Shown in pieces: positions 39,278-51,929 of a DNA stretch of 64,000 nt. The stretch's first letter is position 1, and each line of letters begins with the position of its first letter. The translations under genes were made by a program, and so were the position numbers. The DNA comes from Bifidobacterium asteroides (lineage in GTDB: Bacteria > Actinomycetota > Actinomycetes > Actinomycetales > Bifidobacteriaceae), in NCBI RefSeq assembly GCF_003202755.1, contig NZ_QGLK01000004.1, positions 62,001 to 126,000 of the forward strand, in the 5' to 3' direction. Below the pieces are notes generated by a model. That model ran no database searches, had not been told where the DNA came from, and saw only the letters and a program-made list of their open reading frames with translations.

Positions 39278-40026
39278 TGGCTTGTCCTTTCCCATGCGGT
39301 TACTACAACCACTGTTGTTGGTGCTGCCTTACCGACTATGCGGTGACGATGCATGGGAAATGCTGTCGACGACTGCAGGGCCGGTGGGTTCCGATCCGTG
39401 CAACCGTTCCTACAAGGCACCCGGCGTCACAGATCGAATCCGTGCCACCAATAGGTAAATCGCGTGCCCTGCATGCTGAAACCTCCTGTGGAATCTACAA
39501 TCAGCATTGGTAATAAGCGTACAGCGAAGCTCCAGCAATCCAATGAACGCGACCACTATTTGACCAGGTTCTTCCATTTGCGGACGCCACAAGCATCCAA
39601 AATAAACGTGCCTATGGCAAGACAGGCGAAGCCAGACGAGATTGATCTCAAATTTTCCGAGATTTATCTTGAGGTTCCTTTGGGATGTTTCCTCGAATCG
39701 CTCATTCACCATCCTAGCGAATCGCAACCCACGAATCCGTAATCAGCATATTCAGATAGCCCCCCCTACAAGCTTCCATTCCATCCCGAAGCTTTGCTCG
39801 CTTGTATCCTAAGCTCAATCTCTTCACTACTGTCTGCAAGATATGGTCGGCAAGGACGAATTCAGGTTAAAGTCTTGTCAAAGTTGTGTCGCAAAACCAA
39901 ACTCGGACGCGAGATTGGCATTATCCGACTGTTGCGCCCATGCATTGAGGTCTCTGTCATATACTTTGCCTCAAAGACAAGCAAGAGACAGAATTCTTGG
40001 ATGTGTCGGCCAAAAGGGGTGAGGAA
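39278..40026. other. Gene-free 0.75-kb region between the aminotransferase and SDR genes
   Basis: No convincing gene is present on either strand; short frames here lack ribosome-binding sites and family motifs. The sequence is AT-richer than the flanks. It must hold the promoters of both divergent genes. A direct repeat with a GAGATTNATCT core occurs at 39638-39649 and 39659-39672, 21 bases apart. Confidence 0.5.
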
Positions 40027-40851
40027 ATGACTAATCGAGTAGCACTCGTCACTGGAGCCACCAGCGGCATAGGGTATGAAACTACTCGACTTCTCGCCGA
40101 CCGTGGATACCAGGTATATGCGGTAGGACGACGTGTCGAACGACTGAAGCAGCTTGGCAACAAGGGGGTGACGGCTGTGCAGATGGATCTGACCGATTCT
40201 GCATCCATCGAGAAGGCTGTCGCACGAATTCTGCAGAAGGAACAGCGCGTCGACCTGCTGGTCAACAACGCCGGCTACGGCTCCTATGGCCCGGTCGAGC
40301 AGGTCTCCATCGAAGAGGTCCGTCGGCAATTCGAGGTCAACCTCTTCGGCCTTGCCCGCTTGACCCAGCTGGTACTGCCCGCCATGCGCCGAGCCAGACG
40401 CGGCCGGGTCGTCAACACCTCATCCATGGCGGGCCGGATGGTCACCTATATGGGTGCCTGGTACCATGCCACCAAGTATGCCCTTGAAGCCTTCAGCGAC
40501 GCATTGCGTATGGAGATGCGGCCCTTCGGCATCGACGTGATCTTGATCGAGCCTGGGGCCATCGCCACCAACTGGGGTGCGATCGCCGCCGACCATCTTC
40601 AGTCAGTCACCCGCAAAAGCGCCTATCAAAAGTCGGGGTTTCGAGCTGCTAACGGACTGCGCAAGCTCTATTGCAGCAGACATTTGACCCAGCCATCCGT
40701 TATCGCCAGGGCCATTGTCCATGCCTCGATAGTACGCCATCCTCGTCCACGCTACCTTCTGGGCTTCGGAGCCAAACCCTTGATCGCCCTTCATTCCCTG
40801 CTCCCCACCCGTGCCTGGGACTACCTGATGGTCCATGCCAAGGACCTCTAA
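40027..40851 (+). CDS. Short-chain dehydrogenase/reductase
   Basis: The 274-residue protein is a classical SDR: cofactor motif TGATSGIG (9-16), structural NNAG (80-83), catalytic Ser133, Tyr146 and Lys150 in TSSMAG and AWYHATKYALEAFSDAL. The Arg at 36-37 region (GRRVERL) suggests NADPH preference. The start is the ATG at 40027, close after AGGGGTGAGG; an earlier TTG has no support. C-terminal positively charged residues suggest membrane association or substrate binding. The substrate is unknown; lipid or steroid-like oxidoreductases share this architecture. Confidence 0.85.
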   Translation: MTNRVALVTGATSGIGYETTRLLADRGYQVYAVGRRVERLKQLGNKGVTAVQMDLTDSASIEKAVARILQKEQRVDLLVNNAGYGSYGPVEQVSIEEVRRQFEVNLFGLARLTQLVLPAMRRARRGRVVNTSSMAGRMVTYMGAWYHATKYALEAFSDALRMEMRPFGIDVILIEPGAIATNWGAIAADHLQSVTRKSAYQKSGFRAANGLRKLYCSRHLTQPSVIARAIVHASIVRHPRPRYLLGFGAKPLIALHSLLPTRAWDYLMVHAKDL

Positions 40852-41096
40852 CGCTAAACTATATGCCAGAGCGGTACACAATTAAAGCCAGATGTGCGCA
40901 AGGAAGTTTAAGTTTAGTGAGATAAAATTCTGACCTAGCTACTGTGGAATACCAAGAGTCTGATATACCTCACTTTCCTTGCCTAAGGCTGCTGTTGATG
41001 AGGGCAGCCGTGTGAACGACGTTGGGTTGGGGTATTGCAAGTACTTTGCCGTGCCAATTCGCTGATATTTGTCTTAGTTACTGACTTCCCCCAAAC

Positions 41097-41110
41097 AAAG
41101 CAATTGCTTT
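41097..41110. promoter_or_regulatory. Perfect 14-base palindrome upstream of the unknown cassette
   Basis: AAAGCAATTGCTTT is an exact palindrome. It ends 24 bases before the TATAAT at 41135, so it overlaps the -35 position. There is no good -35 hexamer at that place. An activator or repressor site is plausible. Confidence 0.5.
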
Positions 41111-41134
41111 AAGTGCCTTTGAGCAATGGACGGT

Positions 41135-41140
41135 TATAAT
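41135..41140 (+). promoter_or_regulatory. Candidate -10 element of the unknown cassette
   Basis: TATAAT matches the sigma-70-type consensus exactly and lies 61 bases before the TTG start of the cassette. No clear -35 was found 15-19 bases upstream, which fits a regulated promoter. Confidence 0.45.
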
Positions 41141-41200
41141 CTAATTAATTATCGTCAGTTATTAGCGTGCAGCCGGCATGTCTTTCGATAGGGGGTTTCG

Positions 41201-42208
41201 TTGAAGCCTGAAGAATCTGAGTTCAGCGCCGATCCGGACTCGCCCTTGGCATTTTTCCGGAACGGAATAAGGAATGGCATCTCTAAAAGCAATACCGCCA
41301 TTAAAGACATGGTTCATGCACTGGAACGTGAATCCTCCGAATTTGCCTTGGCTCATAAAGCCATGAATAACGATTTTCGTCTGGTGGTAGATGTTCCAAA
41401 AAATACTCTCGATGCCATCGCTAATGGTGACATCAAGCTAACTACCGATAGAGCAGGCAACACCTTTGCCCAACTTTTAGATCCTAACGGGCGATATGGA
41501 AAGAAATTGCCCATCAAGCGCGAGGATTTCAGCGAGGGAGTTGATCCCTTTCAAGCGGCGAACGCAATACAACTCAGGGCAATTCAAGGTCAGCTTGAAG
41601 ACATCGCCCGCCAAATTGCAGTCATAGATGTGCGCGTGCAGGAAGTTCTCGAGGGGCAACAGAACGACAGGCTCGGCATCCTACAGAGCGGTATGCGCCT
41701 TTATCTGCAAGCCCGTGAAGTTGACGATGAAACTCTTAGAAAGCTCCTTATATCTCAGGCCTTGCGCGCTCTATCGGACGCAGAGGCCCAACTCGAGTTG
41801 GAAATGGAGTCTGACGTAAAATATCTCGCTAATGGCGACTACGAGCATGAAAAAGGCAGACGTACAAAACTCATCGATGAAAGAATGGAGAGCATCAACG
41901 GTTGCTTTCCTGCCATACACAAGGCGTCAATTGCCAGAGCAGCCATTTTTTGCGAGCAAGGAGAGCCCAAGGCCATGGCGAAAGCCTTGGAAACATATTC
42001 GCACTTTATCAAGTCGACTGTGGGAGACAATGCCGGCCTTCTAGCAGAATGCGATCGCTCCGATACAGGAACAGAACAGGGAATTTGGCGATCTCGAGCC
42101 GCACTTCAACTTGACGTTTCCAATCTAAGCAAATCCCTAGCATTGCCCGAGAAGCACTTGTACCTTAAGTTATCTGCTGAAACGGATGAGATCCATGAAG
42201 AGCGTTAG
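41201..42208 (+). CDS. Uncharacterised helical protein, first gene of an AT-richer cassette
   Basis: I do not recognise this 335-residue protein. The TTG start has a GGGGG site upstream. No membrane segment or signal peptide is visible. Residues about 10-60 look helical, 65-110 resemble a small beta/alpha region (VVDVPKNTLDAIANGDIKL), 125-160 form a likely coiled coil (LRAIQGQLEDIARQIAVIDV and on), and the rest is acidic and helical (SDAEAQLELEMESDVKYLAN). No catalytic motif is seen. The gene overlaps a zinc-ribbon gene. Codons ending in A/T are more frequent than in neighbours, suggesting acquired DNA. Confidence 0.7.
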   Translation: MKPEESEFSADPDSPLAFFRNGIRNGISKSNTAIKDMVHALERESSEFALAHKAMNNDFRLVVDVPKNTLDAIANGDIKLTTDRAGNTFAQLLDPNGRYGKKLPIKREDFSEGVDPFQAANAIQLRAIQGQLEDIARQIAVIDVRVQEVLEGQQNDRLGILQSGMRLYLQAREVDDETLRKLLISQALRALSDAEAQLELEMESDVKYLANGDYEHEKGRRTKLIDERMESINGCFPAIHKASIARAAIFCEQGEPKAMAKALETYSHFIKSTVGDNAGLLAECDRSDTGTEQGIWRSRAALQLDVSNLSKSLALPEKHLYLKLSAETDEIHEER

Positions 42209-42521
42209 AGGTTGCACCAACCAGGAATGTGACTCTTACAAAGAGAACGTCCATTATAAAAAAGACTTCGATTACTGTCCGAAATGCGGCTCACAACTGA
42301 TGGCCGTATGCAGATCCCGTAGTTGCCACACTTTCCTCGATAACCCGGATGGTATTTACTGTGCTCGCTGTCTAGCAAAAAGAAAAGACAGCGCAGATCA
42401 TGCGAAGAAAAACATCACCGCCATCGGCGGAGGCTTGTTGGTAGCTGGTAGTTTCGTCGCAAAAAATAGCAAGACAATTATTTCAGTTGCAGCGAAAGCG
42501 ATCAAATTTCTTCCAAAATAA
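42186..42521 (+). CDS. Small zinc-ribbon protein with hydrophobic tail
   Basis: The 111-residue protein has four Cys pairs: CTNQEC, CPKCG, CRSRSC and CARC, enough for two zinc sites in about 55 residues. A hydrophobic, glycine-containing segment follows (AIGGGLLVAGSFVA, about residues 78-91), possibly membrane inserting, and the C-terminus is basic. It overlaps the upstream gene by 23 bases; a second ATG at 42195 could be the true start. The two genes are probably translated together. Function is unknown; zinc ribbons with membrane tails often serve as adaptors. Confidence 0.68.
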   Translation: MRSMKSVRGCTNQECDSYKENVHYKKDFDYCPKCGSQLMAVCRSRSCHTFLDNPDGIYCARCLAKRKDSADHAKKNITAIGGGLLVAGSFVAKNSKTIISVAAKAIKFLPK

Positions 42522-42675
42522 GGGTTCACGCAAACACGGTATTCGTCAAACATCTGCTTTCACAGTTGTCAAAGTACCGCTATAAGTATGACTGAACCTA
42601 TAACCTGTATAAACCCCCAAACACAGAAGTCCCACTTTGTGAAGTCGCCAAGACTGTGAAGCTAAACAAGTAGCT

Positions 42676-42730
42676 AGCCAAGGGACCTTGTCGGACGGGA
42701 ATGGTATCCATTCGACAAGGTTCCTTGGCT
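42676..42730. terminator. Long hairpin between convergent genes
   Basis: A 20-base arm at 42676-42695 pairs with 42711-42730 with two mismatches (both G-T wobbles in RNA). It contains a nested GAATGG/CCATTC alternative. It lies between the convergent zinc-ribbon and fucosidase genes and could terminate both, 22 bases after the fucosidase stop. The T-run is weak. Confidence 0.55.
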
Positions 42731-42751
42731 GATTCATAGAATTCCGATTCC

Positions 42752-43780
42752 TTAGGCCTCCAAAGCTCGCGCTCCCAGTAGTGCTTGCTCAGCAGCCATG
42801 GGAACTCGTCCCAATCCATCCAGACCGACGTTGAGCAGATAGTTGATGCCGTACTTGTTCAGATGGGCCTTGTAATCGTGAATGGTCTGCGGGCTCTTCC
42901 AGTTTTGGTCATGATATGAGAATCCCCAGGAATCGTTGATGGTCCCGGCGGTCTCGTAGAGGTCAAGCTTTGAGGGCTTGAATCCTTCGATCGAGTTGTA
43001 ATCGACATTTCCATCCGAGACGGCCTTGTCGCTGGCATCCGAATCTTCAGGAATCTCGTTGTCCCCCAAAGAGACATAGTCATAGCGGCCGTTGCCCAGC
43101 CTGGAATTGATCAGACAGTCGGGCTGCAGGCGCTTGACTGTATCGTAGATGGTCTGGCTCTGCTCGTCGCTGAGGGTCATGGGAACATCAAACCAGGCAA
43201 CCGATATCTCTCCATAGTTGCTCATGATCTCTTCGATCTGGGGCATGATCTTGTGTTCGAATGCCCGGTCGTAGTTCTTCTCCCCTGTGAAGTCCCAGCT
43301 GTTGTCCCAGGTGGTGCCCGCCGTCTCGATGTCGTTTGAGAGGTATCCGCCGCCATCCGGTTCGTGCCAGTCCAGGTCCTGCGAATAGTAGAGACCAAAT
43401 CGCAGACCAGCCTCGCGGCAGGCCAATGACAGCTCGCCGATCACATCCCTGTGGAAGGGCGTCGCATCATAGACATTGTAAGGATCCACCAGCGACCGGT
43501 ACATGGCGAAGCCGTCATGGTGCTTTGTTGTGACGACCAGGTACTGCATGCCGCAGCGCTTGGCCAGGTCAACTATGGCATCCGCGTCGAAATAAATGGG
43601 GTTGAAGGCCTGGGTCAGGCGTTCGTACTCCTTGTTGGGGATCTGGAGCTTGGATTGGATCCATTCCGCATAGTTGCTAGACGACTTCCCCTGGTACTCC
43701 CCTCCCAGGAGTGAATAGAGACCCCAGTGAATCATCATTCCGTACTTGGCTTGCTTGAACCATTCCACGGTATCGCTCAT
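42752..43780 (-). CDS. GH29-family alpha-L-fucosidase, intracellular
   Basis: The 342-residue enzyme has the GH29 catalytic barrel: MMIHWGLYSLLG near the start, TTKHHDGFAMY (84-94), nucleophile Asp198 in VAWFDVPM, and Glu276 in LYETAGTINDSWGF as a likely acid/base. No signal peptide is present, so it acts in the cytosol on imported glycans. It is shorter than GH29 enzymes with a C-terminal beta-sandwich, which is normal for intracellular fucosidases acting on Fuc-GlcNAc-type compounds. It shares an operon with an MFS transporter, 47 bases downstream of it. Confidence 0.88.
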   Translation of the reverse strand: MSDTVEWFKQAKYGMMIHWGLYSLLGGEYQGKSSSNYAEWIQSKLQIPNKEYERLTQAFNPIYFDADAIVDLAKRCGMQYLVVTTKHHDGFAMYRSLVDPYNVYDATPFHRDVIGELSLACREAGLRFGLYYSQDLDWHEPDGGGYLSNDIETAGTTWDNSWDFTGEKNYDRAFEHKIMPQIEEIMSNYGEISVAWFDVPMTLSDEQSQTIYDTVKRLQPDCLINSRLGNGRYDYVSLGDNEIPEDSDASDKAVSDGNVDYNSIEGFKPSKLDLYETAGTINDSWGFSYHDQNWKSPQTIHDYKAHLNKYGINYLLNVGLDGLGRVPMAAEQALLGARALEA

Positions 43781-43827
43781 TATTTACCTCTGTTTCTGTT
43801 GATTGATACGAGTCGCAATGACCACTC

Positions 43828-45027
43828 TCAGATGGTCAGCTTGTCCTTCTTGACGACGAAGGCATCATAAAGGGCCAGAATCACGTAGCAGATACCTGCG
43901 CACATGATCATGAAACCTGGGTCTTTATTGCCAAGCACCCCGCCCAAGGCTTGGAAAAAGTAGGGAGCCACCAGGGAGCCGATGTTGATGCCGATTAGGA
44001 TGATCGAAGTGGTCAGGTTCATGGAGCCCTTGGGCGAATAGGCCACCATGCGGGCAGTCAGAGCTGGATTGATGATGCCATTGCAGAACCCTGCCACCAG
44101 GACCAGAACCAGCAAGATCGGAATGGAGTTGGTGAAGGGCATAGCGATCATGACCACTGCCGTCAGAACCTCGAAGATGAAGACGGTGTATCGTCCGCAC
44201 CACTTGGCGAGCTGTTCGAAGGCGATGCCTGAGATGATCGAGCAGAGTACCAGGAAGCCGAAGATCCTGGTGGCATCAGCTGCAGAGCCTATGTGTGAAT
44301 CGACCATATGGCTGGCCAGTTTCAGGGAGATAGCCGAATAGAAGAGGCAGACGAAGAGGAAGAGGATGGCCAGCTGGATGACGCCGCCGTTGGTAGACGG
44401 CTTGATGGAAGTGTCTTCCTCAACCTCCTTGCCATCCTCCACGATGACTCGGTCAAGCCGCTTGGGGACGAAAAGGGAGACGAGGACGATTGGAACGATC
44501 AGGAAGAGGAAGACCAGATAAGTGGCATGCCAGGAGATATTGATCAGGAATCCTGCAATGAAGAGCATGATCGAATCGCCGATGGCGCCGACGGAGTTCC
44601 TCCAACCCAAAAGCCTGTTCCTGATTTTCTCAGGGAAGACATCAGTGATGTAGGAGACGCTTAGCGGGGTGAAGATGCCCATGCCCACGCCGAACATGGC
44701 CCTCGACAGGAAAATGGCTGGGTAGTTGTAGAAGAAAGCAGGGATGACTCCGAAGACCAAGGAGACGATGAGCCCCAAAAGGACCGTGTACTTCTTGCCC
44801 AGCTTGTTGGATATGAGGCCGCTGACCACTGTTCCCAGCAGGACGCCTCCCGTGGGGATGACGACCAATAGCTCTACGTTGGCCTCCGAGATGTTGGAGA
44901 AGTACTCCTTCATCAGCGGGATGGTCCCCGAGACGGCGTTCGAAACCGACATCAGGAATGATATGGATAAGATGCCCAACATCAAAATCGGTGAACTGGT
45001 GTTCACCTGTTTCTCTTTTGACTCCAT
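43828..45027 (-). CDS. MFS transporter, candidate glycoamino acid importer
   Basis: This 399-residue protein has about twelve membrane segments, with the MFS loop motif GLISNKLGKKYTVL and the second-half equivalent. It is the first gene of the transporter-fucosidase operon and is divergent from glycosylasparaginase across a 554-base regulatory gap. In Lactobacillus casei an MFS permease (AlfH) of fucosyl-GlcNAc-Asn use has the same neighbours, so the likely substrate is a fucosylated GlcNAc-asparagine. That assignment is inference from context, not from the protein itself. Confidence 0.75.
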   Translation of the reverse strand: MESKEKQVNTSSPILMLGILSISFLMSVSNAVSGTIPLMKEYFSNISEANVELLVVIPTGGVLLGTVVSGLISNKLGKKYTVLLGLIVSLVFGVIPAFFYNYPAIFLSRAMFGVGMGIFTPLSVSYITDVFPEKIRNRLLGWRNSVGAIGDSIMLFIAGFLINISWHATYLVFLFLIVPIVLVSLFVPKRLDRVIVEDGKEVEEDTSIKPSTNGGVIQLAILFLFVCLFYSAISLKLASHMVDSHIGSAADATRIFGFLVLCSIISGIAFEQLAKWCGRYTVFIFEVLTAVVMIAMPFTNSIPILLVLVLVAGFCNGIINPALTARMVAYSPKGSMNLTTSIILIGINIGSLVAPYFFQALGGVLGNKDPGFMIMCAGICYVILALYDAFVVKKDKLTI

Positions 45028-45581
45028 GAAAGTCCCTTCCTCGGAACTGTCATCGCATTCGCATTTACGATGGCGAGCACTTGATTAACTCATGTACTGC
45101 ACACAACTAGATTCAATGAACCATCTTGGTCCCGAACTATTTCAATAGATAATAGTTTGTTAATAGTATATATCAAATTGGAAACTGTACATGCCGAAGG
45201 TGTTGCGTCACGCAGAATCGGCCGGATCTGCCATCCAGCGTTCACCAAACAAATTGTTGGAACTCGGCCTTTTAAGCCTGCCTTAAGGTATGTACGCAAA
45301 AGCTGATGCTGATAAAACAATAGGAGCGCTGGCAAGACATTCCGAAACAAAAGTATCTTTATTAATTATCATTGACAGAAGAGATAAGGCAGAGGACATC
45401 GTTGCTGTCTGCATGCGGGCGAGGTAAGCCCGCTACTGACGGCTGTCCCCTCAGGAGCATGGTCCATCAGCTCGATCATTCATCGACCGGCTGAGGTCTC
45501 GCCTGCTCTTCTGCTTAAAAACAGTTTTTGTGATCCACCCAAGAGCAGTCAACGACCGCACCGATAGAAAGAACCAAGGAA
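45028..45581. other. Divergent regulatory region of the glycan locus
   Basis: No gene is present. It separates the transporter-fucosidase operon from glycosylasparaginase. A perfect 11-base palindrome TGCGTCACGCA lies at 45204-45214, and a GCGGGC/GCCCGC hairpin at 45415-45433. The first is a possible operator. The T-rich stretch around 45150-45170 may hold the MFS promoter. Nothing was identified with confidence. Confidence 0.5.
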
Positions 45582-46577
45582 ATGAGTGATTCATCCTCAC
45601 AGATAGTCAGCCACGATCAATCCACATGGGCCTCTATTGCCACATGGCGGATGGCCTATGAAGGGATGGTCAAGTCAAATTCCGATCTTGAAGAGGATGG
45701 CCATGCGGGCGATGCTGTTGAGACACTGATCCGTGAGGTTGAGGCCAACCCCGATTACACCTCCGTCGGTTATGGTGCTTTGCCCAATCGGGAAGGTGAG
45801 ATGGAGATGGACGCCGCCTTCATGGACGGGAACAGCATGGCTTTGGGAGCCGTGGCCGGCATCCAGCATGTACTCCACCCCATATCCGTGGCCAGGCAGC
45901 TGAGTCGACGCCATACCAGCAGCTTTCTGGTCGGGCAGGGGGCGACTCGTTACGCCCAGGTCAGCGGGTTCGAAATGCGCAATATGCTGACGGACAGGGC
46001 CAGAAAGCGCTGGGAGCTGGAAGCCGCCAAGACCACAACACCGGAGTCTGCCGGCCCCTATCGAGGGCACGATACGGTCGGGGCCATCTCCTTGGATACG
46101 CAGGGTTCTATGGCTGCTGGCACATCGACATCAGGTCTCTTTATGAAGGAGCCGGGCAGAGTAGGCGATTCTCCCCTACCCGGCTCTGGCTTCTACGTGG
46201 ACAGTGCCATCGGGGGGGCAGCCGCCACCGGGCTGGGAGAAGACATCATGAAAGGGTGCCTCTCCTATCGGATCGTCGCCCTGATGGGAAGCGGCTTGAG
46301 CCCGCAGGAAGCCTGCGATTCTGCAGTCTACAAATTTGACGACCTCCTGAGGAACCGCTACGGCAAAGTAGGCGAGATCTCAATGATCGCTCTCAACAAG
46401 AGAGGGGAATGGGGGGTCGCCACAAACGTAGAATTCACCTTCTGCACAGCTAAGAAAGACGAGCAAATACGAATACTCATGGCCAATCCGGACGGCGAGG
46501 GCGGAACACGAATCGAACCAGTGACCAAGGAATGGTTGCAGGAATATGAACGCTCGCTCAAGGCGTCCATCAAATAA
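45582..46577 (+). CDS. N4-(beta-N-acetylglucosaminyl)-L-asparaginase
   Basis: This 331-residue Ntn-hydrolase cleaves the GlcNAc-Asn bond of glycoasparagines, giving aspartate and 1-amino-GlcNAc (then GlcNAc). The self-processing site is intact: nucleophile Thr165 in GHDTVGAISLD, preceded by the cleavage Asp. Downstream the substrate-binding stretch TSTSGLFMKEPGRVGDSPLP and GAAATGLGEDIMK match the family closely. No signal peptide is seen, so it acts in the cytosol. AAGGAA precedes the ATG. It sits opposite the fucosidase-transporter operon. Confidence 0.9.
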   Translation: MSDSSSQIVSHDQSTWASIATWRMAYEGMVKSNSDLEEDGHAGDAVETLIREVEANPDYTSVGYGALPNREGEMEMDAAFMDGNSMALGAVAGIQHVLHPISVARQLSRRHTSSFLVGQGATRYAQVSGFEMRNMLTDRARKRWELEAAKTTTPESAGPYRGHDTVGAISLDTQGSMAAGTSTSGLFMKEPGRVGDSPLPGSGFYVDSAIGGAAATGLGEDIMKGCLSYRIVALMGSGLSPQEACDSAVYKFDDLLRNRYGKVGEISMIALNKRGEWGVATNVEFTFCTAKKDEQIRILMANPDGEGGTRIEPVTKEWLQEYERSLKASIK

Positions 46578-46590
46578 CCATTTATCATTC

Positions 46591-46606
46591 TTGACTGATT
46601 AGTCAA
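46591..46606. promoter_or_regulatory. TetR-type operator palindrome
   Basis: TTGACT-GATT-AGTCAA is a perfect inverted repeat 21 bases before the start of a TetR gene and 14 bases after the glycosylasparaginase stop. A TACTAT -10-like hexamer follows at 46611, so the transcript would be nearly leaderless. Autoregulation by the short TetR protein is the simplest reading. Confidence 0.6.
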
Positions 46607-46626
46607 TTAATACTATCTTGACGGGC

Positions 46627-47046
46627 ATGGGTCGCAAGAGAAGTTTCGATGATGATGAGGTACTTGCCCGTGCCCGCGAGGTTTTCCTGGAGCATGGCTA
46701 TGAGGGCACATCGATTGATGCTCTCGTCAAGGCCACGGGTCTGCTCCGGGGCAGTCTCTACGGTGCCTTCGGCAGCAAGCGCGGCATGTTCGTGGCTGCG
46801 TTACGTGATGCAACGGATTCTGAGTCGGGCGATTCAGGAGTGCTCAATCTGGTATTGGTGGCACTCATGGAGCTGTCAGATCATGATCTTGAGGTTCGTG
46901 GGCTGGTCAGGGATTACCTTGCGAAGCTGTCCAGCTCGGGATATGACGATACTAATGCTGTGGCCCTTGATATCGCCACGCTCCTTGGCGAGACGCTGCT
47001 GCAGCGTGCACATATTCGTCTGCAGCCTGATGACGAAAGAAGATAA
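46627..47046 (+). CDS. Short TetR-family regulator
   Basis: Counting from the ATG at 46627, this is 139 residues, shorter than the usual 190-220. The N-terminal helix-turn-helix is complete: DDEVLARAREVFLEHGYEGT, then TSIDALVKATG and recognition helix LLRGSLYGAFGSKRGMF. The C-terminal ligand domain is reduced to about four helices and may be dimer-only. It is followed after three bases by a PH-like protein gene, so the two form an operon. The earlier TTG at 46618 is less likely. Confidence 0.78.
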   Translation: MGRKRSFDDDEVLARAREVFLEHGYEGTSIDALVKATGLLRGSLYGAFGSKRGMFVAALRDATDSESGDSGVLNLVLVALMELSDHDLEVRGLVRDYLAKLSSSGYDDTNAVALDIATLLGETLLQRAHIRLQPDDERR

Positions 47047-47049
47047 GTC

Positions 47050-47406
47050 ATGAACAACAAGGTGGCAATTGTCGGGCGGACGCTGGAAGTTGAACCGCAG
47101 GGTTTGGATAAGATGTGGTCGTTCACAGGGAAACTGGTGGTGCCGCTCGAGCATGTTCTGGGTGCGAGCGAGGATCCGGGCATTCTTGATGATGCCAAAG
47201 GCCTGCGTGCGCCCGGCCTTCATGTTCCCGGTAAATGGGCCGGCACATACATTGAGCATGGGGAAAAGACATTCTGGAATGTCACCAGACCGGAAAGCCC
47301 CATTGTCATCCAACTCAAGGGTGAGCGCTATGACCGACTGGTGCTCGGGGTGGAACAACCCCGCGAGCTGGTCAACCAGATTAACGCGGCCATCACAAAG
47401 CAGTAA
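47050..47406 (+). CDS. Small PH-like domain protein
   Basis: The 118-residue protein, co-transcribed with the short TetR gene, has a beta-rich pattern (WSFTGKLVVPLEHVLGASED, then IEHGEKTFWNV, IVIQLKGERYDRLVL and a final helix VEQPRELVNQINAAI) like bacterial PH-domain-like proteins. No catalytic motif is visible. Its partner regulator suggests that its own expression is repressed until a signal arrives. Function is unknown. Confidence 0.6.
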   Translation: MNNKVAIVGRTLEVEPQGLDKMWSFTGKLVVPLEHVLGASEDPGILDDAKGLRAPGLHVPGKWAGTYIEHGEKTFWNVTRPESPIVIQLKGERYDRLVLGVEQPRELVNQINAAITKQ

Positions 47407-47491
47407 ACCACAAAGCAGTAAACAATGAATTGCAGCACCTGAGTTCTTCTATCGACTATCTGAATTCAATAGCCCGAGAACCAAATAACTG

Positions 47492-47551
47492 GGCCGACAA
47501 GTCATATGTGACTATACTGTCTTCGACGTATTGCCATATGGCTTGTCGGCC
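47492..47551. terminator. Bidirectional hairpin between convergent genes
   Basis: GGCCGACAAG and CTTGTCGGCC pair perfectly over ten bases, extended by CATATG/CATATG after one T-G wobble, with a 26-base loop. It lies between the PH-like gene and guaA, which converge, eight bases after the guaA stop. Confidence 0.65.
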
Positions 47552-47558
47552 TAGATGC

Positions 47559-49121
47559 TCACTCCCACTCGATGGTTGCCGGCGGCTTGGATGTGCAATC
47601 CAGGACCACACGGTTGATGCCCGGGCACTCGTTGGTAATGCGTGTGGAAATAGTGGCCAGCACGTCATAGGGCAGACGTGTCCAGTCGGCAGTCATGGCA
47701 TCCTCAGAGGAAACCGGACGCAGCACGATCGGCGAGCCATAGGTGCGCTCGTCGCCCTGCACACCTACCGAATGCACATTGGCCAGCAGCACCACCGGGC
47801 ACTGCCAGATCTGCCGGTCCAGCCCAGCCTTGGACAGCTCTTCGCGGGCAATGGCGTCCGCCTCGCGCAGGGTCTCCAGACGTTCCCGGGTAATCTCGCC
47901 GATGATGCGGATTCCCAGACCAGGGCCGGGGAAGGGTTGACGCCAGACAATCTGGTCAGGCAGGCCCAGTTCGGTACCGATGGCCCGTACCTCATCCTTG
48001 AAGAGGGTGCGCAGAGGCTCGATCAGCTGGAACTTGACGTCCTTGGGCAGACCGCCCACATTGTGGTGGGACTTGATATTGGCCGCTCCATCTCCGCCGC
48101 CCGACTCGACCACGTCAGGGTAGAGTGTGCCCTGCACAAGGAACTTGACTTCCTTGCCGGTCTTGCCTGCCTCCTCAATCACCTGCCGCTGGGCTTTTTC
48201 AAAAGTGCGGATAAACTTCTCGCCGATGATCTTGCGCTTGCGCTCGGGCTCGGAAACGCCCTTGAGGGCGGTCAGGAAATCCTGCGAGGCATCCACGGCT
48301 ATCAGCTTGATGCCAGTGGCGGCCACAAAATCATGCTTGACCTGCTCGGCCTCCCCCTTGCGCAACAGGCCATGATCTACGAAGACGCAAGTCAGCTGGT
48401 CCCCGACGGCCCTGTGGACCAGAGCGGCCGCCACAGCTGAATCAACGCCGCCTGACAGGCCACAAATGACCTGGTCGTCACCCACCGTGCGACGGATCTT
48501 CTCCACCTGTTGCCCGATGATGCCTGAGGCGTTCCAGTCCGACGGCAGTCCGGCGCACTGGTGCAGGAAGCGGTCAATCAGATCCTGTCCCAAAGGGGTG
48601 TTGGTCACCTCGGGATGCCACTGGACTCCGTACAGCCCCCGGGAAGGATCCTGCATGGCCGCCACCGGAGCACCTTCGGTATGCGCCAGAACCTCAAAGC
48701 CCTTAGGCGCACGATTGACGGCAACGCCATGGCTCATCCATACATCCTGACGGTCGGGCGAATCCTGTAGTATTCCCTTAGCGCTGTCGATGAAGGCCTC
48801 GGTCTTGCCGTACTCCCCCAGAGCCGCCTTGTCCACCTCACCGCCCAGCTCATGGGCCATGACCTGGAAGCCGTAGCAGATGCCCAGAACGGGCACCCCC
48901 GCCTCGAAAATTCTCTTATCTATGTTGGGCGCCCCGTCCACGTAGACAGAGGCCGGGCCGCCGGAAAGAATGACCGCCTTGGGATCCTTAGCCAGCATCT
49001 GGTCCAAGCTCATCGAATGAGGCACCAGCTCGGAGTAGACCCCCGCCTCCCTGACTCGACGAGCGATCAGCTGGGCGTACTGTGCACCGAAATCGACCAC
49101 CAGGACGGGACCCTGTGCCAT
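47559..49121 (-). CDS. guaA: GMP synthase (glutamine-hydrolysing)
   Basis: GuaA converts XMP to GMP. From the ATG at 49121 (preceded by AAGGAG) the protein has 520 residues: a class I glutamine amidotransferase with Cys82 in [10 protein letters not shown], the HPEV motif region, and an ATP pyrophosphatase with [12 protein letters not shown], plus the C-terminal dimerisation domain. A longer upstream frame is rejected as it has no ribosome-binding site and lacks family similarity. It is divergent from xfp. Confidence 0.96.
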
Positions 49122-49454
49122 AAGACTCCTTATATGTATGCTGTATCTGCCATGGATGCCCGAGAGCGACGATTCGAGGCCCTCGAACAAGTCCAGTATG
49201 GTTGCAGTTTTCGACAATGCTACCGTCATTGAGCCCAGATCGGCAGCCCCAATGGAAGTTCATATCTGCAAGCAGACAATTCCCTCGCATTTTCTCACAA
49301 GAGCGAACACACACTGCAAGAAAACGTTCAGAAAAGTCTGCTCGTTCACGTACCATGTAGGCATTGGGTACGGACCCGACAGATGCCTGGAATGACACTG
49401 TACAAGCCCGTAACCGAGGTAAATAAACAATCGCACTAAAGTGCAGGAGTACAC
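49122..49454. other. Divergent region guaA / xfp
   Basis: No gene is present. It must hold the promoters of guaA and of the very highly expressed xfp. A perfect inverted repeat TTCGAG-GCC-CTCGAA lies at 49173-49187, near the guaA side. Confidence 0.55.
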
Positions 49455-51929
49455 ATGACGAATCCTGTTATCGGCACCCCTTGGGCGAAGCTGGAGACCC
49501 CAATCGCCGAGGAGACCCTCGAGGCCGTCGACAAGTATTGGCGGGCGGCCAACTATCTTTCCATCGGACAGATTTATCTTCGCAGCAACCCCCTGATGAA
49601 GGAGCCCTTCACTCGGGAGGATGTCAAGCATCGTCTGGTCGGCCACTGGGGCACCACCCCCGGCCTGAACTTCCTGCTGGGCCATATCAACCGTCTGATC
49701 GCCGACCATCAACAGAACACCGTGATCATCATGGGCCCCGGCCACGGCGGCCCCGCCGGCACTTCGCAGTCCTACCTGGATGGCACCTACAGCGAGTACT
49801 ACCCCAAGATCACCAACGATGAGGCTGGCCTGCAGAAGTTCTTCCGCCAGTTCTCTTACCCGGGCGGCATCCCCTCCCACTTCGCGCCTGAGACCCCCGG
49901 GTCCATCCACGAGGGCGGCGAGCTGGGCTATGCCCTCTCCCACGCTTATGGCGCCATCATGAACAACCCCAGCCTCTTCGTGCCCTGCATCGTGGGCGAC
50001 GGCGAGGCCGAGACCGGCCCTCTGGCCACCGGCTGGCAGTCCAACAAGCTGGTCAACCCCCGCACCGACGGCATCGTCCTGCCCATCCTGCACCTGAACG
50101 GCTACAAGATCGCCAACCCGACCATTCTCTCGCGCATCTCTGACGAAGAGCTGCATGAGTACTTCCATGGCATGGGTTATGAGCCCTTCGAGTTCGTTGC
50201 CGGATTCGACGACGAGGATCATCTGTCCATCCACCGCCGCTTCGCCGACATGCTGGAGACCGTCTTCGACAAGATCTGCGACATCAAGGCCCGGGCCGAA
50301 ACCGACGACATGACTCGTCCCTTCTACCCCATGATCATCTTCCGCACACCCAAGGGCTGGACCTGCCCCAAGTTCATCGACGGCAAGAAGACCGAGGGAT
50401 CCTGGCGCGCCCACCAGGTGCCGCTGACCTCCGCCCGCGACACCGAGGCCCACTTCCAGATCCTCAAGAACTGGTTGGCCTCCTACAAGCCCGAGGAGCT
50501 CTTCGACGAGAAGGGCGCCGTGCGTCCCGAGGTCACCAGCTTCATGCCCAAGGGCGACCTACGCATCGGCGAGAACCCCAACGCCAATGGCGGCCGGCTG
50601 CTCAAGCCCCTGGAGCTGCCCGACATCCACGACTACGAGATCGACATCAAGAAGCACGGCCACGGCTGGGGCGCCACCGAGGCCACCCGCGTCCTGGGCT
50701 ACTACACCCGCGACGTACTGGCCAAGAACCCCACCGACTTCCGCATCTTCGGACCTGACGAGACGGCCTCCAACCGTCTGGCCGCCGCCTATGAGGTGAC
50801 CAACAAGCAGTGGGATGCCGACTACCTGTCGGAGCTGACCGACGAGCACATGGCCCACACCGGCCAGGTCATCGAGCAGCTCTCCGAGCACCAGATGGAA
50901 GGCTTCCTGGAGGGCTACCTGCTGACCGGACGCCACGGCATCTGGAGCTCCTATGAGTCCTTCGTGCACGTCATCGACTCCATGATCAATCAGCACGCCA
51001 AGTGGCTGGAGGCCACCGTCCGCGAGATCCCGTGGCGCAAGCCCATCGCCGGACTGAACCTCCTGGTCACCTCGCACGTCTGGCGTCAGGACCACAACGG
51101 GTTCTCCCACCAGGATCCCGGCTTCGTCGACATCCTGCTGAACAAGAACTTCAACAACGATCACGTGGTCAACATCTACTTCCCCGCCGATGCCAACATG
51201 CTGCTGAACGTGGGCGAGCGTTGCTACAAGTCGACCAACTGCATCAACGCCATCTTCGCCGGCAAGCAGCCCGCCGCCACCTATCAGAGCGTGGACGAGG
51301 CCGCCGCCGAGTTGGAGAAGGGGGCCGCCCGCTGGGATTGGGCCTCCAACGCCAAGAATGCCGAGGATGCTGATGTCGTCATCGCCACTGCAGGCGACAT
51401 CCCCACCCAAGAGGCCCTGGCCGCCGACGACATGCTGCAGAAGCTGGGCGTGAAGGTCCAGTTCGTCAACGTGGTCGACCTGTTGAAGATCCAGGACACC
51501 GAGGAAAACGATCAGGCCCTGTCCGATGAGGAGTTCACCGAGCTCTTCAGCAAGGACAAGCCGGTCCTGTTCGCCTTCCACGCATACCCCGGCTCCATCT
51601 ACCGCCTGATCCACGGACGTCCCAACCACGACAACTTCTCCGTGCACGGCTACGAGGAGCAGGGCTCCACCACCACGCCGTTCGACATGGTGCGCGTCAA
51701 CAACATGGATCGCTGGTGCCTGGCCGCCTCCGCCCTGAAGCTGGTGGATGCCGGCAAGTACGCCGACCAGATCGACAAGTGGACCAAGTTCCGCGACGAG
51801 GCCTTCCAGTTCGCCGTGGACAAGGGCTACGACCACCCCGATTACACCGATTGGGTCTGGCCCGATGCCAACCGCGCCGGCCAGGAGACCATCTCCGCCA
51901 CCGCCGCGACCGCCGGAGACAACGAGTGA
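49455..51929 (+). CDS. xfp: Xylulose-5-phosphate/fructose-6-phosphate phosphoketolase
   Basis: Xfp is the key enzyme of the bifid shunt: it splits fructose-6-P or xylulose-5-P with phosphate to acetyl-phosphate and erythrose-4-P or glyceraldehyde-3-P. The 824-residue protein has the thiamine diphosphate motif [18 protein letters not shown] (181-198), catalytic His64 and His97 ([17 protein letters not shown]) and the family length. Codon use is strongly biased to G/C-ending optimal codons, as for a very abundant protein. GGAG precedes the ATG; its own terminator follows. Confidence 0.97.

Follow-up and report, generated by a model that had tools for sequence, protein, structure and literature searches.

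The closest described relative of the locus examined here is the alf-2 cluster of Lactobacillus casei BL23, which serves the use of fucosyl-alpha-1,6-N-acetylglucosamine-asparagine (fucosyl-alpha-1,6-GlcNAc-Asn), a glycoamino acid. As far as the passages of that study considered here report, knockouts in L. casei showed that alfH, alfC and asnA2, and also asdA and sugK, are required for efficient use of this substrate, and that loss of alfR2 permits the use of other 6'-fucosyl glycans, such as 6'FN and N2F, via AlfH and AlfC (Becerra et al. 2020, PMC6960285). The same passages carry the pathway into Bifidobacterium: the legend of Fig. 7 names alf-2 clusters of Bifidobacterium asteroides Bin2 and B. 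actinocoloniiforme, bifidobacterial AsnA2 homologues are reported only from B. actinocoloniiforme, B. asteroides and B. xylocopae, and a Lactobacillus origin is suggested for all three bifidobacterial genes. For the fucosidase step, passages of a second paper describe a B. asteroides enzyme, BaGH29, that is alpha-1,6-specific, cleaves 6FN and frees fucose from the FA2G2 N-glycan (PMC11189522). Here, we examined a 64,000-nucleotide stretch of B. asteroides DNA (hereafter, the window; positions 62001-126000 of contig C4, in a genome of 2.17 Mb and seven contigs), in which genes for a GH29 fucosidase, an MFS permease and a glycosylasparaginase lie side by side at 42752-46577. Because the pathway has already been published for this genus, our finding is a confirmation and not a new pathway.

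We read this locus as a bifidobacterial alf-2 pathway for fucosyl-alpha-1,6-GlcNAc-Asn in trimmed form, with a probability of about 0.82. A preliminary description of the window, made from its sequence, had named the three open reading frames (ORFs) and their divergent arrangement, and both were borne out. The alfC-type alpha-1,6-L-fucosidase gene (42752-43780, minus strand) encodes a predicted cytosolic protein of 342 aa (Alpha_L_fucos, 7.7e-62). Directly upstream on the same strand is the alfH-type permease gene (43828-45027; 399 aa; MFS_1, 6.5e-35), whose product has many hydrophobic segments. Across a divergent intergenic region of 554 bp (45028-45581) lies the asnA2-type gene (45582-46577, plus strand), encoding an N-terminal nucleophile hydrolase of 331 aa with T165 as its predicted nucleophile (Asparaginase_2, 2.1e-68). 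All three Pfam matches exceed their cut-offs. The fucosidase and the asparaginase had also been said to lack signal peptides, and by Kyte-Doolittle hydropathy, which is not a signal-peptide program, neither N-terminus is hydrophobic (highest 19-residue mean in the first 45 residues, 0.23 and -0.06, respectively). The arrangement is not a chance one, as the trio stands together in six of 27 genomes of the genus, the source genome included, and in some Lactobacillales. In comparison with four close relatives that carry all three genes at the same site (L055, L056, L144 and L057), the ratio of nonsynonymous to synonymous divergence (dN/dS, by the simple Nei-Gojobori method) was 0.02-0.03 for AlfC, 0.01-0.04 for AlfH and 0.10-0.15 for AsnA. 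All three genes are under purifying selection, and AsnA is the least constrained.

The fucosidase is 98% identical to a characterized enzyme, BaGH29 (PDB 8P1S), over a full-length match (335 of 342 residues, seven substitutions; 5.3e-238) and 77% identical to L. casei AlfC (PDB 6O18). The nucleophile D198, the proposed acid/base D240, the alpha-1,6-subsite tyrosine Y37 and the site-narrowing isoleucine I264 are all kept (our numbering is that of PMC11189522 minus 20). The fucosidase is the sole match to its family model in the host genome. The AlfC chemistry has been demonstrated by others for a 98% identical enzyme, and the specificity reported for it bears out the expectation that the window fucosidase suits an alpha-1,6 link rather than others; fucosyl-GlcNAc-Asn is not among the assays in the passages of PMC11189522 considered here.

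With L. casei as the model for transport, for the AsnA step in this bacterium, for the fate of fucose and for physiology, the route would run as follows. AlfH would import fucosyl-alpha-1,6-GlcNAc-Asn, AlfC would take off the alpha-1,6 fucose in the cytosol, and AsnA2 would cleave the bond between GlcNAc and Asn; of the two products, aspartate and 1-amino-GlcNAc, the latter would decay to GlcNAc. The order of the AlfC and AsnA2 cuts is not fixed, because L. casei AsnA2 also cleaves the fucosylated form in vitro. GlcNAc would then enter central metabolism via NagA, NagB and a kinase, whose genes lie away from the alf locus, and fucose would probably be expelled. ROK proteins are encoded elsewhere in the genome, and on contig C1 (L149:5826-11766) nagA (241.8 bits, cut-off 225.65), nagB, a ROK protein gene and a GlcNAc 2-epimerase-family gene follow one another, with a gene for another ROK-family protein in divergent orientation to them. 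This is probably an amino-sugar use locus, and its genes may act on GlcNAc from the alf pathway. We found no match in the genome to GH85 or GH18, the two endoglycosidase families searched, from which we infer that the bacterium consumes stubs released by others; it probably scavenges its substrate rather than releasing it. There was no sign of fuconate dehydratase, the one fucose gene searched for: the sole MR_MLE_C match is below its cut-off, in a 442-residue frame whose match suggests an enolase. A short-chain dehydrogenase/reductase (SDR) gene at 39997 was considered as a fucose dehydrogenase gene and judged unlikely, as it stays in place in genomes that have only asnA remnants (L136-L140).

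The likeness to L. casei AlfH, AlfC and AsnA2 on which the preliminary description was built holds by sequence. Identities to the window AlfC, MFS protein and AsnA are 76%, 73% and 64% in Lacticaseibacillus chiayiensis (L063), which we take to be a casei-group species, and 81%, 74% and 62% in Agrilactobacillus yilanensis (L060); for AlfH and AsnA2, L. chiayiensis serves as a proxy for the BL23 proteins. Might the permease instead be an exporter, of drugs or of fucose? Several efflux models are among its weak, sub-cut-off NCBIfam matches, but none of the 23 models listed for it reaches its cut-off, it is 73-74% identical to its counterparts at the alfH position in the alf-2 clusters of the two species above, and with an L. 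casei alfH mutant the substrate is reported to have stayed in the medium (PMC6960285, in the passages considered). We regard export as barely credible. It is this orthology, and not a tree with drug exporters, that supports the importer role first proposed; an MFS tree of 15 rows, three of them very distant, had weak inner support and was not relied on. Compared with the proxies, the window has an AlfH orthologue adjoining alfC, as expected of an alf-2 cluster.

For the asparaginase, the competing view has it as a plant-type asparaginase or a beta-aspartyl peptidase that plays no part in glycoamino acid use. It does match isoaspartyl peptidase/asparaginase chains (3.2e-39 at best) and the NCBIfam beta-aspartyl-peptidase model PRK10226, the latter at 130.5 bits against a cut-off of 567; its best PDB match, however, is a bacterial glycosylasparaginase (1P4K, 8e-56), and in a 14-row tree it groups with the AsnA proteins of the Lacticaseibacillus and Agrilactobacillus alf-2 clusters. 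W22, T165, R193, D196, T216 and G217 are identical in the window AsnA and in all 12 fetched homologues aligned, and we take them to correspond to W11, T152, R180, D183, T203 and G204, catalytic or substrate-binding residues of glycosylasparaginase. The nucleophile T165 is preceded by D164, and T183 (equivalent to T170) is Ser in three of the 12 homologues; the tree and the alignment leave out L057 and L144, whose aligned pieces with a stop were dropped. On this evidence, the peptidase view is very improbable. For L. casei AsnA2 itself, autoproteolysis and activity on GlcNAc-Asn have been reported (PMC6960285, in the passages considered). We also considered whether AsnA has decayed in G007 and L057, which have in-frame stops, and rejected this, since the first stops, at 318 and 321 of 331, remove only the end. 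In a further alternative, the cells feed mainly on a free 6'-fucosyl glycan, either 6'-fucosyl-GlcNAc or fucosylated chitobiose, which AlfH would import and AlfC would cut, while AsnA would act separately on unfucosylated GlcNAc-Asn. The use of 6'FN and N2F by L. casei lacking alfR2 favors this, as the bifidobacterial cluster has no adjacent alfR2, and so does one relative with AlfC and no AsnA (L058); the joint occurrence of the trio in six of 27 genomes and the purifying selection on AsnA speak against it, and we hold it to be unlikely.

Several observations nevertheless weigh against the alf-2 reading itself. No regulator, sugK or asdA adjoins the trio, though efficient use depends on sugK and asdA in L. 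casei. AsnA diverges faster than AlfC and AlfH in dN/dS. Some relatives (L058 and L059, the latter B. polysaccharolyticum, whose alfH is not intact) keep AlfC without an intact AlfH or AsnA, so the three genes are not strictly bound together. BaGH29 is reported to be inactive on the IgG glycan, the IgG glycoprotein, the PLA2 N-glycan and the PLA2 glycoprotein (PMC11189522, in the passages considered), and in the titles and abstract starts of the open-licence literature we found no growth or transport data for the pathway in Bifidobacterium. As to the missing neighbors, none of alfR2, pepV, asdA and sugK flanks the trio by ORFs and Pfam at the locus (for pepV and asdA the search was not genome-wide), but these genes are outside the backbone named in the passages of PMC6960285, where asdA is also said to be missing in L. 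rhamnosus. An AlfR2 orthologue elsewhere in the genome was sought and dismissed: the best GntR/UTRA-type match to AlfR2 of L063 is 27% identical and adjoins a transport-type gene with different boxes (neighbors were judged by eye).

The core fucose of plant N-glycans is alpha-1,3-linked, and animals, insects included, produce an alpha-1,6-linked one. The source is for this reason likelier to be glycoproteins of bees or other animals than pollen, and the proposed origin in host or food N-glycoproteins stands for animal, perhaps bee, glycoproteins and becomes unlikely for plant food. That BaGH29 is inactive on the PLA2 N-glycan (PMC11189522) argues against bees as the direct source, an objection tempered by the fact that an enzyme in the cytosol would encounter nothing but the trimmed stub. 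Very probably, the substrate is the fucose-sugar-asparagine stub of digested animal glycoproteins, imported and dismantled by the trio.

We searched 27 genomes of the genus, including the source (AsnA at E <= 0.001, AlfC and MFS at E <= 1e-30). Seven encode all three genes, together in G000 (the source genome), G005, G007, G013, G019 and G020 and split over two places in G023. Two are partial (G009, with AlfC, AsnA and alfH scraps; G004, with AlfC and alfH scraps), and seven hold remnants only, namely asnA pieces in G001, G010, G012, G016, G024 and G025 and a broken alfC in G002. The other 11 gave no match at these thresholds, at which shorter scraps would be missed, and several genomes carry other, distant GH29 or MFS proteins. 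At 16 fetched loci the genes or remnants adjoin the aminotransferase/2-hydroxyacid dehydrogenase/SDR side, the TetR/guaA/xfp side, or both, with L143 as the exception; some of these stretches stop, or run out of flanking genes, short of one side. The locus is at one chromosomal site in the bee clade, where B. apousia and B. mizhiense, which have the trio, and others of the B. asteroides group are the closest named relatives by this locus, and it is broken in many relatives. In G023 (L142 and L143), asnA is at the shared site and alfC and alfH are about 235 kb away, so that the pathway is split over two loci.

In a 16-row tree of flanking genes, starred branches force at least four changes of the label for a full trio together, a count that mixes gains and losses and that 141 of 500 label shuffles matched or undercut. 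Recombination may affect the flanks, five of the rows are less than half filled, and the tree covers none of the 11 no-match genomes. The same asnA remnant (about residues 87-155) occurs in L138, L139 and L140 (G001, G024 and G016), which lie apart on this tree, with starred branches forcing at least two changes. This hints at recombination of a broken locus between species.

More widely, we examined the AlfC loci of the best 80 of 95 matches; 46 of the 80 were cut short on at least one side. Nine of the 80 have all three genes, all of them in Lactobacillales or Bifidobacterium, and more three-gene loci may exist because so many were cut short. In a quick AlfC tree of 52 sequences, nine Bifidobacterium rows form one group (Shimodaira-Hasegawa-like approximate likelihood ratio test (SH-aLRT) 98), inside a group of 21 rows (SH-aLRT 98) whose other 12 are Lactobacillaceae; the rows are three distant sequences and otherwise those with identities of 63% or more, support is by SH-aLRT only, inner forks are open and some far rows are long-branched. 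This tree agrees with the published transfer from Lactobacillus. In the AsnA tree, the rows of the B. asteroides group, the B. xylocopae/G023 pair, L. chiayiensis and Agrilactobacillus meet at an unresolved fork, so AsnA alone cannot tell one transfer from two. A second, recent alfHC transfer into G023 was suspected from its identities of 91% and 89%, against 79% and 81% in B. xylocopae, and was set aside, since divergence at synonymous sites is either on a par with that of a flanking gene or has reached saturation (alfH dS 0.96, alfC pS 0.73, guaA dS 0.98). Three bee-gut Lactobacillus loci (L074, L079 and L082) encode an AlfC of 71-72% identity and have within 10 kb no tblastn match to the window AsnA and no MFS match above 31% (E <= 1e-10); they may feed AlfC another way. 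Two Vagococcus loci (L070 and L081) have AlfC with AsnA nearby and no match to the window MFS protein in the available stretch, which is short for L081; these may use another importer.

A bolder account, which we offer only tentatively, is that the bee-clade module is stripped and unregulated like the L. casei alfR2 mutant, always on and taking free 6'-fucosyl glycans as well as 6'FN-Asn. It would have been gained once at one chromosomal site and dismantled gene by gene across species, perhaps respread by recombination, and bee-gut bifidobacteria would thus differ in their use of host N-glycan stubs. Its prediction of free 6'-fucosyl glycan use follows from the wider glycan range that loss of alfR2 is reported to give L. 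casei (PMC6960285, in the passages considered).

The divergent intergenic region holds some candidate control elements. A block at 45155-45198 is invariant in the five species aligned and spans most of a promoter-like site read towards alfH; a promoter scan of the region gave five such sites against 3.1 expected, and is therefore weak. Inside this block, about 148 bp upstream of alfH, lies TGATATATACTA, the only match to the self-complementary TAGTATATACTA (at most two mismatches) in the 64-kb window. The box occurs in L063 at -143 and -360, with a variant at -157, and in L060 at -202, with a variant at -405; the 600 bp upstream of alfH contain none in G023, B. xylocopae, L064, L065 and L066, and for that reason it may be just a -10 element or what is left of an AlfR2 site, a candidate only. 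An inverted repeat, AACTATT-N9-AATAGTT (45135-45157), was found once against 0.01 expected; B. apousia and B. mizhiense retain it, and in two other species it is disturbed. Because both motifs had been chosen by eye before they were tested, the expected numbers overstate their significance. Rfam gave no match at the gathering score in 40000-50000.

On the other side of asnA2, a TetR gene (46618-47046) and an ORF of unknown function (47050-47406) were considered as cluster members and rejected, as both occupy this position also where relatives have nothing but remnants, or AlfC as the sole intact gene (L135, L138-L140 and L058). Just upstream of them is a perfect inverted repeat, TTGACT-GATT-AGTCAA (46591-46606), whose arms are exact or have one change in L055, L058, L059, L135 and L138; with at most two mismatches it has two matches in the window against 1.25 expected. 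It may be a self-control site of the TetR pair, independent of the alf genes.

For the original observation, the value of this analysis is that it confirms a published prediction; the trimmed layout and the patchwork of decay add modestly to published work, and the new angle is the patchiness. Our results support the published view that a glycoamino-acid scavenging route of a human-gut lactobacillus is also found in insect gut symbionts, gained from Lactobacillaceae. Since closely related bee bifidobacteria have the route intact, partial or ruined, strain niche differences on host N-glycans become testable.

Set beside the known systems, the window shares with the L. casei BL23 alf-2 cluster an AlfC, orthologues of AlfH and AsnA2 (by way of L063), and alfHC divergent from asnA2; the BL23 cluster has asdA, alfR2, pepV and sugK, whereas none of these is adjacent in the window, whose GlcNAc genes are elsewhere. 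In L063, genes for a ROK protein, AsnA2, an M20 peptidase and a GntR/UTRA protein diverge from those for the MFS protein and AlfC, which is the L. casei layout of Becerra et al. minus asdA. The alf-2 clusters of B. asteroides Bin2 and B. actinocoloniiforme belong to the same genus and are reported to have AlfC, AlfH and AsnA2 homologues; they are known to us from a figure legend (PMC6960285), and their layouts were not compared gene by gene. Unlike the Elizabethkingia (Flavobacterium) meningosepticum glycosylasparaginase 1P4K, with which it has in common what we take to be the catalytic Thr and substrate-binding residues, the window AsnA has no evident signal peptide and has Met for F13 and Leu for H205. 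BaGH29 (26A; PDB 8P1S/8P1R; cluster 26 of the GH29 sequence similarity network) differs from the window fucosidase at 7 of 342 residues; the passages of PMC11189522 considered here are silent on neighboring genes, and every active-site residue they quote is the same in the window enzyme.

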